From a virus, in IMG/VR virus record IMGVR_UViG_3300030616_000088, positions 1-21,441 of that record: a stretch of 21,441 nucleotides of DNA. The stretch is one strand, 5' to 3'. A model generated the notes under the pieces. The model had not been told where the DNA came from. It searched no databases and worked only from the letters and a program-made list of their open reading frames with translations. The translations under genes were made by a program, and so were the position numbers. This document shows positions 1,004-17,230 of the stretch, piece by piece (the stretch's first letter is position 1; every line of letters starts with the position of its first letter).

Positions 1004-1293
1004 TTTTCACCCTTTCCGATTAGATGGTCCGCAACTCCCCTCAAAACATCTTCGGCAAGCTGTATTCTTTTGTGGACCATACCTTCTTCGGACTCTTTCG
1101 GGACAACTAAAACCTCATAGCCTAAAGCCTTCGCCCAGGCAGACAAACTATCAAGGCTTGGCTTAGTTGTTCCCTTTTCTGCCTGTGATAAAAAAGACGA
1201 AGTAGCTTTGGTTCTTCTAGCAAGCTCGTTTAGCTTCATACCCTTTAAATGCCTAATATGCCGCGAGTTCTTCAAAAAATCCTTTAATTCCAT
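1000..1293 (-). CDS. Cro/C1 (XRE)-type helix-turn-helix regulator (97 aa)
   Basis: Residues 1-65 match the XRE/Cro fold: an N-terminal helix (LKDFLKNSRHIRH), then KLNELARRTKATSSFLSQAEKGTTKPSLDSLSAWAKALGY, where LNELARRTKA is helix 2 and SSFLSQAEKG is the recognition helix. The C-terminal ~30 residues are charged and may dimerise. The ATG at 1293 is chosen because GGAGGT lies 5 nt upstream. The start overlaps the end of the lysozyme-like gene by 10 nt. Co-transcription with a lytic enzyme and with small operon partners suggests a role in timing phage gene expression, but no operator is recognisable. Confidence 0.88.
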   Translation of the reverse strand: MELKDFLKNSRHIRHLKGMKLNELARRTKATSSFLSQAEKGTTKPSLDSLSAWAKALGYEVLVVPKESEEGMVHKRIQLAEDVLRGVADHLIGKGEK

Positions 1294-2072
1294 TCTGACC
1301 TCCATTTTTCCATGTAATATTTAGCGTTACCGTACCAATTCTTATTTAACCCCGTAGGGTCGTTCTCTGCGCCTACCGGACACCACCTATCGGCAAAAGC
1401 CTTTAAGTCGCCGGCAAATCGTTTCTTGATAGTTCCTGCCGCCCATTGTGCTTGACATCGGAAAGAAACCCTCCAATCAGGGTGATCTTCAAATCGTTGG
1501 GCGGCGGGCGATAAAACGCCGAACTCTCTGCCTTGCCGCCCATTTTCCACTTTGCGGATAACGAACAACAATAGCCTAGCCTCACCAGCCAGGCTGTATT
1601 CGTTAGCCACTTCATTTATGATTTGAGACTCTTGAGGGGATAAAGACATCTGCTCTGCCGTGACTGTCTTAGATGTATTTTCGGCGTAGACAGAGCAGGT
1701 TAACAAAAAGGGGGTTGTAGTGATTGCGCTAAGTAAAAAGATCGCCCTTACAAAAAAAGTTAATTTGGGCTGAAACCGAAGGAAAAAGCTTTTAGCAAAT
1801 GGCAACTGTGAGTTACCATCGAGGACGTTAGCGCAACGCCACTTGTCGCTATCCCTTACGCCTTTATATCTTATGTTAACTTTTTGGCGATAAAAAAAAG
1901 ATGAAAATTCTAAGCCGGTATTAGCCTTTTTTCGTTCTCTATGTAAACGGTTACTGTGAAGTTCTACCCCTAGCGCGTGAGATGACACTACGCCCAGACA
2001 GGCACGACTAGAGTCCACGCCAGGGGTTTTTATGTTTGCTTTTGGTTTTAGGGTTTTTCGTTTTTGTGTCAT
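1284..2072 (-). CDS. Lysozyme/transglycosylase-like protein with membrane or signal segment; N-terminus uncertain
   Basis: In the 262-codon frame, residues 167-262 look like a phage lysozyme-like muramidase domain: VIRKVENGRQGREFG with candidate catalytic Glu176, then AAGTIKKRF, CPVGAENDPTGLNKNW near the end. Residues ~105-131 are hydrophobic and end in SVYA, consistent with a Sec signal or anchor. Residues 1-100 have odd composition and no family likeness. The ATG at 2072 has no ribosome binding site and lies about 4 nt from the predicted transcript start of a consensus promoter, so translation may really begin further in; a candidate is the ATG at M142. The first 300 nt may instead be a structured leader RNA (see the ncRNA entry). 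The enzyme domain itself is reasonably secure and would cleave cell-wall glycan during entry or lysis. Confidence 0.65.
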   Translation of the reverse strand: MTQKRKTLKPKANIKTPGVDSSRACLGVVSSHALGVELHSNRLHRERKKANTGLEFSSFFYRQKVNIRYKGVRDSDKWRCANVLDGNSQLPFAKSFFLRFQPKLTFFVRAIFLLSAITTTPFLLTCSVYAENTSKTVTAEQMSLSPQESQIINEVANEYSLAGEARLLLFVIRKVENGRQGREFGVLSPAAQRFEDHPDWRVSFRCQAQWAAGTIKKRFAGDLKAFADRWCPVGAENDPTGLNKNWYGNAKYYMEKWRSEWN

Positions 2073-2076
2073 CTCA
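1741..2076 (-). ncRNA. Candidate structured leader or non-coding RNA with 25-nt antisense to the HTH gene
   Basis: The predicted start of transcription (about 2076) coincides with the first base of UGAGAUGACAC, which pairs perfectly with 1978-1988 (11 bp). A second stem pairs 2016-2026 with 1967-1979 (11 bp with GU pairs) and crosses the first, so a pseudoknot is possible. Further in, AUCGCC plus AAAAAGUUAA (1876-1891) pair with 1741-1746 and 1754-1763, enclosing a hairpin AGCG-A-CAA/UUG-CGCU. Bases 1794-1818 are perfectly complementary to codons 18-26 of the HTH gene mRNA. The 3' end is unknown: a U8 tract at 1892-1899 follows a weak AU-rich hairpin, and otherwise the RNA would run on into the lysozyme gene. 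No known RNA class is recognised. Confidence 0.5.
1794..1818. repeat. 25-bp perfect inverted repeat, left copy
   Basis: This 25-bp segment is the exact reverse complement of 2508-2532; the match stops abruptly on both sides. The left copy lies between the structured RNA and the lysozyme domain, the right copy inside the HTH gene. A 25-bp perfect match in a 0.7-kb neighbourhood is not expected by chance. Confidence 0.93.
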
Positions 2077-2082
2077 ATTATT

Positions 2083-2110
2083 ATTATAAACCTCTATTTA
2101 ACCTTGTCAA
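2083..2110 (-). promoter_or_regulatory. Consensus sigma-70 promoter for the structured RNA/lysozyme transcript
   Basis: On the minus strand, TTGACA (2105-2110) and TATAAT (2083-2088) are both exact consensus hexamers separated by 16 bp. An A/T-rich tract lies just upstream (2111-2140) and could act as an UP element. The predicted start of transcription is near 2076, only about 4 nt before the ATG at 2072. Confidence 0.85.
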
Positions 2111-2120
2111 GAAAATTTTT

Positions 2121-2585
2121 TTATTTTTTTCCCTTTATTTCTGCTTCATATTGTTGTTGCCGGAACTCTCCCGAAAGACTATATTTTTCATAAGGCACTT
2201 GCCCTTGATACTTGGCCTCGTTGAACATGGGGTGATTAGAATTTATCCCAGAAGCTTTAACTCTAATACAAAACATGTGACACCAACACCCCTCTGTCCG
2301 CCCTCTCGCCAGAAGAACAATTAGGGGGATGATCCAGTCAGAACACGAAAACTTGCCCTTTGCTATCCCCGTGGCATATTGGCGACTAACACCTAAACAT
2401 GTCCCAAACTTAGTATATTTCCCCTTATGCCATCTTTGAGCGTAACAGATATGCTTGAACGCTTCTGGTTTTAAATATACAGATAAATAATCTCGTTTAC
2501 CTTTTTTTGGTAACTCACAGTTGCCATTTGCTTGACCAATATGGAAAATACTATATACCATTTTGCCTAACGCCCATTTACTCAT
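2121..2585 (-). CDS. HTH DNA-binding protein with Cys-rich C-terminal motif (154 aa)
   Basis: The ATG at 2585 follows an AGAGGG ribosome binding site and overlaps the stop of the ribbon-helix-helix gene by 8 nt. Residues ~56-90 (YTKFGTCLGVSRQYATGIAKGKFSCSDWIIPLI) look like a helix-turn-helix. They are followed by GCWCHMFC (residues 99-106), a motif I associate with small phage HTH proteins, here with four Cys/His that might bind metal. The last 45 residues are polar and unrecognised. Codons 18-26 are complementary to the neighbouring structured RNA. Together with the RHH protein upstream and the strong promoter downstream, this is a likely repressor or switch protein; the exact role is inference. 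Confidence 0.75.
   Translation of the reverse strand: MSKWALGKMVYSIFHIGQANGNCELPKKGKRDYLSVYLKPEAFKHICYAQRWHKGKYTKFGTCLGVSRQYATGIAKGKFSCSDWIIPLIVLLARGRTEGCWCHMFCIRVKASGINSNHPMFNEAKYQGQVPYEKYSLSGEFRQQQYEAEIKGKK
2508..2532. repeat. 25-bp perfect inverted repeat, right copy (inside HTH gene)
   Basis: Exact reverse complement of 1794-1818. It covers codons 18-26 (QANGNCELP) of the HTH gene, so a transcript of the left copy on the minus strand would be antisense to this mRNA. The two copies could also pair within one long transcript with a loop of about 690 nt. Confidence 0.93.
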
Positions 2586-2751
2586 TCAACCCTCTTTTAT
2601 ATAGACTTTTTAAGGCCGCCCGCCGAATCCAAGAAGAAGGCTTTAAGTCGTCCTTTTCTGCATGGTCCTCAATCTCGCGGAGCTCTTTCACAGAAAACCT
2701 AATAGATACCTTTTCAGTCCTTTTTTCTCTCAATTTCTTTAAGCTAACCAT
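2578..2751 (-). CDS. Ribbon-helix-helix (Arc/MetJ/CopG-type) regulator (57 aa)
   Basis: The frame from ATG 2751 encodes a 57-residue protein. Residues 13-18 (EKVSIRF) form the DNA-binding beta strand, followed by helix SVKELREIEDHAEK, a turn, and helix SSWIRRAALKSL: the textbook ribbon-helix-helix layout. An AAGGAG ribosome binding site lies at good spacing, overlapping the end of the preceding gene. It sits second in a three-gene operon behind two strong promoters and is translationally coupled to the HTH gene by an 8-nt overlap. No antitoxin partner is seen, so a transcription regulator is more likely than a toxin-antitoxin member. Confidence 0.85.
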   Translation of the reverse strand: MVSLKKLREKRTEKVSIRFSVKELREIEDHAEKDDLKPSSWIRRAALKSLYKRGLNE

Positions 2752-3109: not shown

Positions 3110-3138
3110 ATTTTATTAAGCTTTGCCCAACTTGTCAA
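3110..3138 (-). promoter_or_regulatory. Sigma-70 promoter P1 of the regulator operon
   Basis: Minus strand TTGACA (3133-3138) and TAAAAT (3110-3115) with a 17-bp spacer, 56 bp upstream of P2. The two tandem promoters make this the clearest transcription start region of the left half. The rest of 3036-3192 holds no gene that I can support; a weak CAC/GTG hairpin followed by a T7 tract (about 3145-3165) may end the leftward transcript of the 60-aa gene. Confidence 0.72.
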
Positions 3139-4239: not shown

Positions 4240-4604
4240 TATACCCTTAATAGCCACCAGAAACCGCCGACACACCCGCCTAATATAAGTAAGGTGATTC
4301 CCCAATGGATTGGCCGCCAAAACCACAAGGCAGACACCTTATCCCTTACCCCCGGCGCTTCGGCCAAGTGTTCCTCAACTTCCTTGTGTTTAAGCTCACA
4401 GGCTTCCTTCTGGCTAGTTATGTAAGACTCCAGGGTCGTGGCTATTCTTACCATTTCGCGGGAAGTGCTGATCTTAAAATCAGTCATGCTTGTAGTAAGT
4501 AAGTCAACCTTCCCTTCTAAAACTCCAAGCCGTTGGTTTACTAAACTAATCTGGGAGATATCTTTCTCTAAGCGAGCTACTCTTTTTTTCAGGTCTTCTG
4601 ACAT
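4239..4604 (-). CDS. Coiled-coil protein with C-terminal transmembrane anchor (121 aa)
   Basis: Residues 1-90 carry heptad-like leucines (LKKRVARLEKDISQI, LGVLEGKVDLL) typical of a coiled coil. Residues ~97-119 (HWGITLLILGGCVGGFWWLL) form one membrane helix with a very short tail, so the coiled coil should face the cytoplasm or periplasm depending on insertion. The layout resembles XhlA-type haemolysin or spanin-like accessory proteins next to phage lysis genes, but sequence likeness is only general. The ATG at 4604 follows AAAGGA and overlaps the previous coiled-coil gene by 59 nt. Confidence 0.65.
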   Translation of the reverse strand: MSEDLKKRVARLEKDISQISLVNQRLGVLEGKVDLLTTSMTDFKISTSREMVRIATTLESYITSQKEACELKHKEVEEHLAEAPGVRDKVSALWFWRPIHWGITLLILGGCVGGFWWLLRV

Positions 4605-4797
4605 TTTCTTCCTTTGCTATTGTTTCCATCATTCTAAAATACGACAACCCCACGTCCCGAACTGACACAGCAAGCTTGGCCACCTGTTCGTCTAACTGGT
4701 TAACCAACCCCTTTAAATCCTCAAACAACAATTTCCTGTGCGCCTTCTCTTCCTCGACTGCTTTCTCTAAAGCGTGAACCCTCTCCTCTAATCCCAT
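4546..4797 (-). CDS. Coiled-coil hypothetical protein (83 aa)
   Basis: Residues 1-50 form a clear coiled coil (LEERVHALEKAVEEEKAH, then LVNQLDEQVAKLAVSV), ending in a charged tail. There is no membrane segment. It is first in the leftward block after the single rightward gene and so should have its own promoter in 4798-4850, where I see only weak -10-like TATACT. Its coiled coil could pair with that of the 121-aa membrane protein directly downstream. The ribosome binding site is weak (AAGG). Confidence 0.55.
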   Translation of the reverse strand: MGLEERVHALEKAVEEEKAHRKLLFEDLKGLVNQLDEQVAKLAVSVRDVGLSYFRMMETIAKEENVRRPEKKSSSLRERYLPD

Positions 4798-4804
4798 TTT
4801 AACC

Positions 4805-4835
4805 TTGACTTATATTTTTTAAGCAGTAGTATAAA
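4805..4835 (+). promoter_or_regulatory. Possible promoter for the rightward DUF3467-like gene
   Basis: TTGACT (4805-4810) and TATAAA (4830-4835) on the plus strand, with a long 19-bp spacer. The gene is alone on this strand and needs its own promoter, but the predicted leader would be only about 10 nt, so the assignment is weak. Confidence 0.35.
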
Positions 4836-4852
4836 TAATAAAGGAGGTGGTT

Positions 4853-5092
4853 ATGTCAGAATATACCCCGCAAATGCCGGTTAATCTTTACCCCCCGGTT
4901 ATTACTAACTTTTTCCAAGTTTCAATCGTTGACAATGAACAGGTTTTGTTTGACTTCGGATATACCGGTCCGGACAAATCTATGATTCCTTCTAAAACAG
5001 TAGTGTTCGCCCGTTGCCAAATCCATAAAAAAGACCTACCAGGATTGAAAACCTTGGTTGACGAAGCCTGTAAGAAGCTTCAAGCCCCGTGA
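4853..5092 (+). CDS. DUF3467-like small protein (79 aa), only clear rightward gene
   Basis: The ATG at 4853 has an excellent AAAGGAGGTGG site. The translation shows PVITNFFQVSIVDNEQVLFDFG, then ARCQIHKKDLPGLKTLVDEACKKL. This matches my memory of the DUF3467 layout: an NF.qV....eFvlDFg strand pair, a short linker, then a strand plus helix with a conserved Leu near the end. The function of that family is not known to me. The gene is convergent with the holin candidate (39-nt gap) and divergent from the coiled-coil gene. Its lone orientation suggests independent expression, as for an accessory (moron-like) gene. Confidence 0.72.
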   Translation: MSEYTPQMPVNLYPPVITNFFQVSIVDNEQVLFDFGYTGPDKSMIPSKTVVFARCQIHKKDLPGLKTLVDEACKKLQAP

Positions 5093-15889: not shown

Positions 15890-16083
15890 CTCATCCTCCT
15901 TTGGACTAAATCTTGTCTTTCTTTTTCCGTTAAAGTGTCAAAGTTAGCCCTATCCACTAACTTACCGTCCCGTTCAAAAAGTTTTCCCTCTAGCTCCCCA
16001 TACCAAAATCCAGAAATATCGCACCGTTTAAGCTTCCCTTTATACCAAGACGGAAGCCCTTTTGACCGCCCTTTTCTGCTCAT
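15886..16083 (-). CDS. Small conserved phage protein (65 aa, RCDxSGFWY motif)
   Basis: Starts MSRKGRSKGLPSWYKGKLKRCDISGFWY, followed by a turn (ERDGKLVDRANFDTLTEKERQD). The RCDxSGFWY....L..rdG.lV...~.DtLte pattern is one I recall from small zinc-finger-like phage proteins near head genes, but here only one Cys remains, so zinc binding is unlikely. The ATG at 16083 has AAAGGAG 7 nt upstream and lies inside the end of the O-antigen ligase-like gene (44-nt overlap). Probably the true continuation of the operon after that insertion. Confidence 0.7.
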   Translation of the reverse strand: MSRKGRSKGLPSWYKGKLKRCDISGFWYGELEGKLFERDGKLVDRANFDTLTEKERQDLVQRRMR

Positions 16084-17230
16084 GCACAACTCCTTTGAAT
16101 AGCCCGTAAAATAAAACAAAAAACATTCCTGACATAGCCACATGATTAGCGAAAACACCCATACTGCATAACATATAAGCTAAAAGACAACAAAAATATA
16201 AGCACAGCTCTTTGTTTCTGTACCGCTTAAACTCCCGGAAAAAGCTTACAAGAAAGAAAACTAAAATCGCTAGCCCCAGGCGTCCAAACTCAAAGATCAA
16301 CTCTATATAATCATTATGAAAATGCGTGTACTTCTCAAGCCGGCGGTTAAAGTATCTGTTCTCTTTGTATAACGGCAAAACTTTAGACGTGCTCCCTAAC
16401 CCATACCCTGTCCAAGTATTAGCGCCCAATATCTTTTCATGGTGCTTGACCTCTAACGGAATATGACCCGTTAACATAGCCTCAAACCCTACCTTTGCCG
16501 GGGCGATCCTCCCGTGCAAATGCCCTAAGACGTTTTTGTCGTATTTGGTAAAGAAAACCGCCGCCCCGCATAAGAGAATCACCAACGTAAAGTATCTTAG
16601 TTTATGCTTAGTTAAAAAAAGATAAACGATAGACGCTACTGTAAACCCGACAAAAGCGAACGAAGTCGTAGAACAAAAAAGACCGAAAAGGACCAATGGC
16701 AGTAAAACAGGGCATACCCCAACAGCTATCGGGGCGGTAGTCGCAAAGAAAACCCCTAGTTGGTTATGGCTTCCGCTGAATCCCACAGTATCATCGCTGG
16801 AATAATCAACTTTTCCGTGAACGACCTTAGTAAACAAAGGATCAATGCCGTTAGCTTGTAAAATAACCCAAGCCCCTTGAAGGAGAATCAACCCAATGAT
16901 AGCCCAACAGACTATCTTCCTTTTCTTAACCGTCAGGTTGCTTATTCCATACATAGCCAACCCCGCGAGGTAGACTTCTCCTGTGATAAACATAGCTTTC
17001 ATGTTTAATTTGGTAACGAATATCGCCGAAAGAAGGCACATAATCGAAAAAAGAGAGATAGCTTTGTCAAACTTCCATAAGAAAATAGACACACCTACCA
17101 TAAATAACGCAATCAGCGCAATACATTGAGGATACCAGACATCAGCCCCAGGCATTGGAATAGCCGCCGACAACGGAACTATAAATAGCGAAGCGATAAT
17201 AAGAATTAAATATTTGTTTATAGTTTTCAT
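16040..17230 (-). CDS. O-antigen ligase/polymerase-like (WaaL/Wzy) membrane protein (396 aa)
   Basis: About ten hydrophobic segments across the length. SGSHNQLGVFF (His155) and YTHFHNDYIELIFEFGRLG (residues 301-319) form the characteristic Wzy_C/O-antigen ligase signatures, with the HNDY histidine in the large periplasmic loop and a conserved Arg241 region (GRIAPAKVGFEAML) before it. Such proteins attach or polymerise O-antigen sugars on lipid carriers at the periplasmic face. Phage-encoded versions are known to change host serotype (for example phage D3). Here the gene sits inside the virion operon. It has no ribosome binding site and its ATG follows directly on the U-tract of an intrinsic terminator, suggesting low or special expression. 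Confidence 0.85.
   Translation of the reverse strand: MKTINKYLILIIASLFIVPLSAAIPMPGADVWYPQCIALIALFMVGVSIFLWKFDKAISLFSIMCLLSAIFVTKLNMKAMFITGEVYLAGLAMYGISNLTVKKRKIVCWAIIGLILLQGAWVILQANGIDPLFTKVVHGKVDYSSDDTVGFSGSHNQLGVFFATTAPIAVGVCPVLLPLVLFGLFCSTTSFAFVGFTVASIVYLFLTKHKLRYFTLVILLCGAAVFFTKYDKNVLGHLHGRIAPAKVGFEAMLTGHIPLEVKHHEKILGANTWTGYGLGSTSKVLPLYKENRYFNRRLEKYTHFHNDYIELIFEFGRLGLAILVFFLVSFFREFKRYRNKELCLYFCCLLAYMLCSMGVFANHVAMSGMFFVLFYGLFKGVVHEQKRAVKRASVLV

Follow-up and report, generated by a model that had tools for sequence, protein, structure and literature searches.

In phage T4, the early transcripts of gene e are sequestered and lysozyme synthesis is reduced 100-fold, and the late-promoter transcripts, in which the 5' strand of the helix is missing, are translated well (PMC3014915). 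In gene e and in the I-TevI leader, the helix formed in the longer transcripts buries the start, and a promoter gives transcripts without the upstream strand (PMC3014915). Complementary phage transcripts also control a regulator or lysis gene, as in lambda OOP, P22 sar, P1/P7 c4 and PAK_P4as15; OOP, aQ and PAK_P4as15 are listed as cis-acting, and c4 pairs around the ribosome-binding site, with the complementary sequences in loops (PMC12197685). In invertons, short perfect inverted repeats, with arms usually 10–40 nt long, surround a promoter (PMC11892184).

The window analyzed here comprises all 21,441 bases of an IMG/VR record. It is a fragment of a tailed phage and encodes a Mu gpT-like major capsid protein (MCP). 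A perfect 25-bp inverted repeat, with 689 nt between its arms, has one arm in ORF 2585–2121 and the other in a frame that is open into a gene for a secreted protein, both on the minus strand. The features of the region are as follows:

3138–3110 and 3082–3054, minus strand: two promoters (11/12) that could yield a read-through mRNA spanning both arms.
2578–2751, minus strand: small ribbon-helix-helix-like ORF, upstream of ORF 2585–2121 and overlapping its start.
2121–2585, minus strand: 154-aa ORF without a family match, labelled HTH in the preliminary description.
2508–2532, minus strand: right (upstream) arm, codons 18–26 of ORF 2585–2121; RNA AGCAAAUGGCAACUGUGAGUUACCA.
2083–2110, minus strand: sigma-70-type promoter motif, TTGACA-16-TATAAT (12/12), between the arms and directed toward the secreted-protein gene.
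1806–2072, minus strand: 5' leader or N-terminal extension, with an in-frame ATG at 2072; codon usage not gene-like.
About 1966–2027, minus strand: strong leader hairpin, about −31 kcal/mol.
1794–1818, minus strand: left (downstream) arm, UGGUAACUCACAGUUGCCAUUUGCU, covering the in-frame TTG 1805 from −13 to +12; codons 85–93 if the start is ATG 2072.
1803–1805, minus strand: TTG within the left arm, a candidate start codon that lacks a Shine-Dalgarno sequence.
1284–1805, minus strand: secreted protein, MPFAKSFFLRFQPKLTFFVRAIFLLSAITTTPFLLTCSVYA and then ENTS..., with a core 57–65% identical to the homologues in L003 and L004.

The repeat is real, and its function is a proposal. In agreement with the preliminary description, its homology stops abruptly at both ends and none is found past either of them. 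We surveyed 694 kb of DNA from this and other phages for perfect inverted repeats 16 bp or longer whose arms are 60–3000 nt apart, and there was no second one. Simple arithmetic puts the chance of a 25-bp inverted repeat in a 21-kb window at about 2e-7. As the pair is the only one of its kind in the 694 kb, a chance origin is excluded. The arm sequence occurs at two sites only in the window, even allowing 3 mismatches, and its 19-mer core is absent from IMG/VR; a 21-mer match in a Cytophagales FtsX-like gene was taken as chance. Both arms are quasi-palindromic, TGGTAACT-CAC-AGTTGCCA, with a symmetry matched by only 0.9% of the 25-mers in the window. The left-arm RNA is predicted to fold on itself (−8.3 kcal/mol), with 79% of it paired in its own hairpin. 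A 25-mer of this kind would suit a hairpin, an operator or a recombination site. Transposon ends were rejected as the source of the arms: no target duplication was seen and the ORF runs across the arm.

On the right-arm side, the start of ORF 2585–2121 is sound on two grounds: an overlap with the stop codon of the small ORF before it, in the sequence ATGAGTAA, and a GAGG Shine-Dalgarno sequence. Within the coding sequence the arm occupies roughly +54 to +78, away from this start. The codons given for it in the preliminary description are correct, but the HTH label is not supported in Pfam, PHROGs, NCBIfam or PDB sequences, where the protein has no match, and the name reflects appearance only. 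Single-sequence structure models were uninformative, including that of this ORF (pLDDT about 34). DNA and protein searches of phage records, IMG/VR and bacterial genomes, from which near-identical records may have been withheld, retrieved no relative of the ORF or of the leader, and none were found for the ribbon-helix-helix-like ORF or for ORF 3901–3320. The two near-consensus promoters farther upstream are 56 nt apart and stand ahead of small ORFs.

Directly after the left arm, the secreted-protein gene encodes a signal peptide and then the 125-aa core common to L003 and L004. Three phages share this protein. Searches of Pfam, PHROGs, NCBIfam and the PDB sequences gave no match to it; it is possibly a cell-wall lytic protein. 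Its frame is open from ATG 2072 to 1284, with the left arm inside. Based on dinucleotide shuffles, the stretch 2072–1806 stays open in 0.4% of cases, so that translation may begin upstream and the left arm may then be internal coding sequence; 2072–1663 stays open in none. The open frame upstream of TTG 1805 thus favours coding. Against this, the codon usage of 2072–1806 falls under every sampled window of other genes, ATG 2072 lacks a Shine-Dalgarno sequence, and a stretch of about 110 residues ahead of the hydrophobic core is no signal peptide. Of the canonical in-frame starts, only TTG 1805 leads to a signal peptide of the usual length. Judging from these sequence features, the chance that translation starts at TTG 1805 rather than upstream is about even, or slightly below that. 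An AP2-like appearance of the N-terminal extension was not supported.

By eye, the homologues in L003 and L004 each have a promoter-like sequence close upstream. An HNH endonuclease-like ORF, possibly lying in an intron, interrupts the L003 homologue (4396–4990). This interruption raised the possibility of a group I intron in the leader, but Rfam gives none.

The closest phages, L005 and L006, have 75–76% MCP identity and syntenic structural genes. Their records contain no match to ORF 2585–2121 or to the secreted-protein gene, and the stretches of them that were examined contain no such inverted repeat. Among the head genes of the window, at 16040–17230, is a gene for a Wzy_C (O-antigen ligase-like) membrane protein, which L005 and L006 retain at the corresponding position with 34–36% identity. 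At positions 1–170 the window has tandem 24-nt repeats; read on the minus strand, they would give an octapeptide repeat of the type NIxGGTVR, the C-terminal part of a repeat protein that is cut by the record end. In L091 (18993–19979), from the relative G002, a Dam-like methylase ORF carries a long low-complexity insert of LQQLEQLERL repeats.

The consensus promoter noted in the preliminary description is present as the 12/12 motif at 2110–2083, the sole perfect promoter motif in the window. A terminator scan found no minus-strand terminator-like site between ORF 2585–2121 and the secreted-protein gene. The left copy had been placed in a leader RNA, behind a structured part. The hairpin at about 1966–2027 is indeed strong, but the whole leader fold is ordinary (z −0.76), and leader status is not clear given the frame open from ATG 2072. 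There is no Rfam match for the window, nor for the leader under permissive filters.

As the best functional reading we tentatively propose control of the T4 gene e kind over a longer range, in which the arms would act in cis on the mRNA. Transcripts from the upstream promoters at 3138–3110 and 3082–3054 would pass through ORF 2585–2121 into the secreted-protein gene. Such read-through mRNA, carrying both arms, would form a 25-bp duplex that buries TTG 1805. The mRNA from the internal promoter would begin past the upstream arm, which would make the duplex impossible, and would be translated; the product may be a late or lysis protein. Because the 12/12 motif lies between the arms, the arrangement is that used by T4 gene e, and the 3' strand would cover the start if translation begins at TTG 1805. 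The locus differs from gene e and I-TevI (PMC3014915) in that the arms are about 700 nt apart, the 25 bp are perfect and the upstream arm is inside the coding sequence of another gene; the candidate start is a TTG without a Shine-Dalgarno sequence, and the effect is a predicted one.

Folding predictions are consistent with this scheme. In the joint transcript the arms are predicted to pair over all 25 bp, with probabilities of 0.8 and 0.92 for the two terminal pairs and 1.0 for all those in between. Unfolding the start region is predicted to take 30 kcal/mol in the read-through RNA, 15 kcal/mol in the internal-promoter RNA and 14–15 kcal/mol when the upstream arm is scrambled; for most other genes of the window the figure is 4–11 kcal/mol. 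The location of both genes on the same strand, the promoter motif between the arms pointing in the correct direction, and the position of the left arm over TTG 1805, ahead of the core conserved in L003 and L004, also argue for sequestration in cis. Several observations count against it. The genes of L003 and L004 appear to have the Shine-Dalgarno sequence that TTG 1805 lacks, the upstream frame is rarely open by chance, as noted above, and the internal-promoter RNA still hides the TTG in an 8-bp hairpin (15 kcal/mol). Ribosomes on the upstream ORF would, in addition, transiently cover its arm. The proposal is thus weakened by an uncertain start, a residual hairpin in the internal transcript and a protein without a family match. 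It is rather doubtful, though possible, that the phage times a secreted and possibly lytic protein in this way, with the blocking strand for its start codon hidden in coding sequence 700 nt upstream and the promoter between the strands lifting the block.

Nearly as likely as sequestration in cis is a neutral accident, in which 25 bp of one gene were recently duplicated in inverted orientation into the other, through a template switch or through illegitimate recombination, with no regulatory role. The perfect identity and the abrupt ends with no homology beyond them would be expected of such an event. The repeat is missing near the secreted-protein homologues of L003 and L004 and from the close phage G002, and codon usage is atypical in both affected regions, which also fits. 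An accident of this kind does less to explain why no comparable pair occurs in 694 kb of phage DNA, why the copied segment is quasi-palindromic, a property of so few 25-mers in the window, and why the copy straddles a candidate start codon with a promoter motif between the arms.

Pairing in trans between separate transcripts is unlikely. Either the leader would silence the ORF mRNA, as was first suggested for this locus, or the ORF mRNA would silence the secreted-protein mRNA, probably via RNase III. The RNA–RNA duplex is strongly favoured by its predicted energy (−44.4 kcal/mol). RNase III can act on a duplex of 25 bp, and the left-arm transcript has a strong promoter motif. Phages offer precedents in OOP, sar, c4 and PAK_P4as15 (PMC12197685), from which the locus differs in having a second perfect copy in another gene on the same strand. 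The pairing and the promoter motif thus stand, but the direction from leader to HTH mRNA is not favoured, because the right arm is about 54 nt into its coding sequence and not at the start, and it is the left arm that covers a candidate start. The left arm is also shut in its own hairpin, and since both arms are on one strand and possibly share one mRNA, pairing in cis would win over pairing in trans.

Less probable again is an inverton, in which the arms would be recombinase sites and the 739-bp segment would flip, so that the internal promoter is joined to the gene or cut off from it. The quasi-palindromic sites with an asymmetric centre, their perfect identity and inverted orientation, and the promoter motif inside are all in keeping with one, and the 25-nt arms fall within the usual range (PMC11892184). 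A resolvase and an integrase are present in a more distant MCP relative, but neither was found in this or four related records, all of them partial. A flip would truncate the upstream ORF and leave the downstream ORF startless, and the locus differs from described invertons (PMC11892184) in that one arm is within a gene body and no recombinase was seen in these partial records.

It is improbable that the copies are paired DNA operators, at which a phage regulator, either the product of the ORF at 2585 or an HTH_3 protein encoded nearby (1305–1000), would loop or road-block the promoter between them. Lambda-type operators have dyad symmetry with an odd centre. The arms share this property, and the HTH_3 protein is a true one, but there are just two sites in the window, neither arm overlaps a promoter, and an operator would not require the identity that is seen 6 bp outside the dyad and across its asymmetric centre. 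Finally, the scaffold and guide of a host- or phage-encoded nuclease, the other alternative in the preliminary description, is very improbable: structured RNA does lie 5' of the left arm and a T-rich sequence (TTTTTT, plus strand) precedes the target, but no TnpB/Cas12f domain (PF07282), which would mark the nuclease-like protein cognate to a TnpB, Cas12 or TldR guide RNA, was found in this or four related records, Rfam gives no match, the overall leader fold is not significant, and the quasi-palindromic arm folds on itself and would make a poor guide.

Start sequestration with an internal promoter is already known; an arm 700 nt away within another gene would be new. If sequestration in cis is true of this phage, start-site control of the kind known from local T4-type hairpins would also operate through duplexes that join distant genes. 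Sequence alone is enough to find such cases, in the form of a perfect inverted repeat that places one arm over a start codon and encloses a promoter, so that the idea is directly testable across viral metagenomes.
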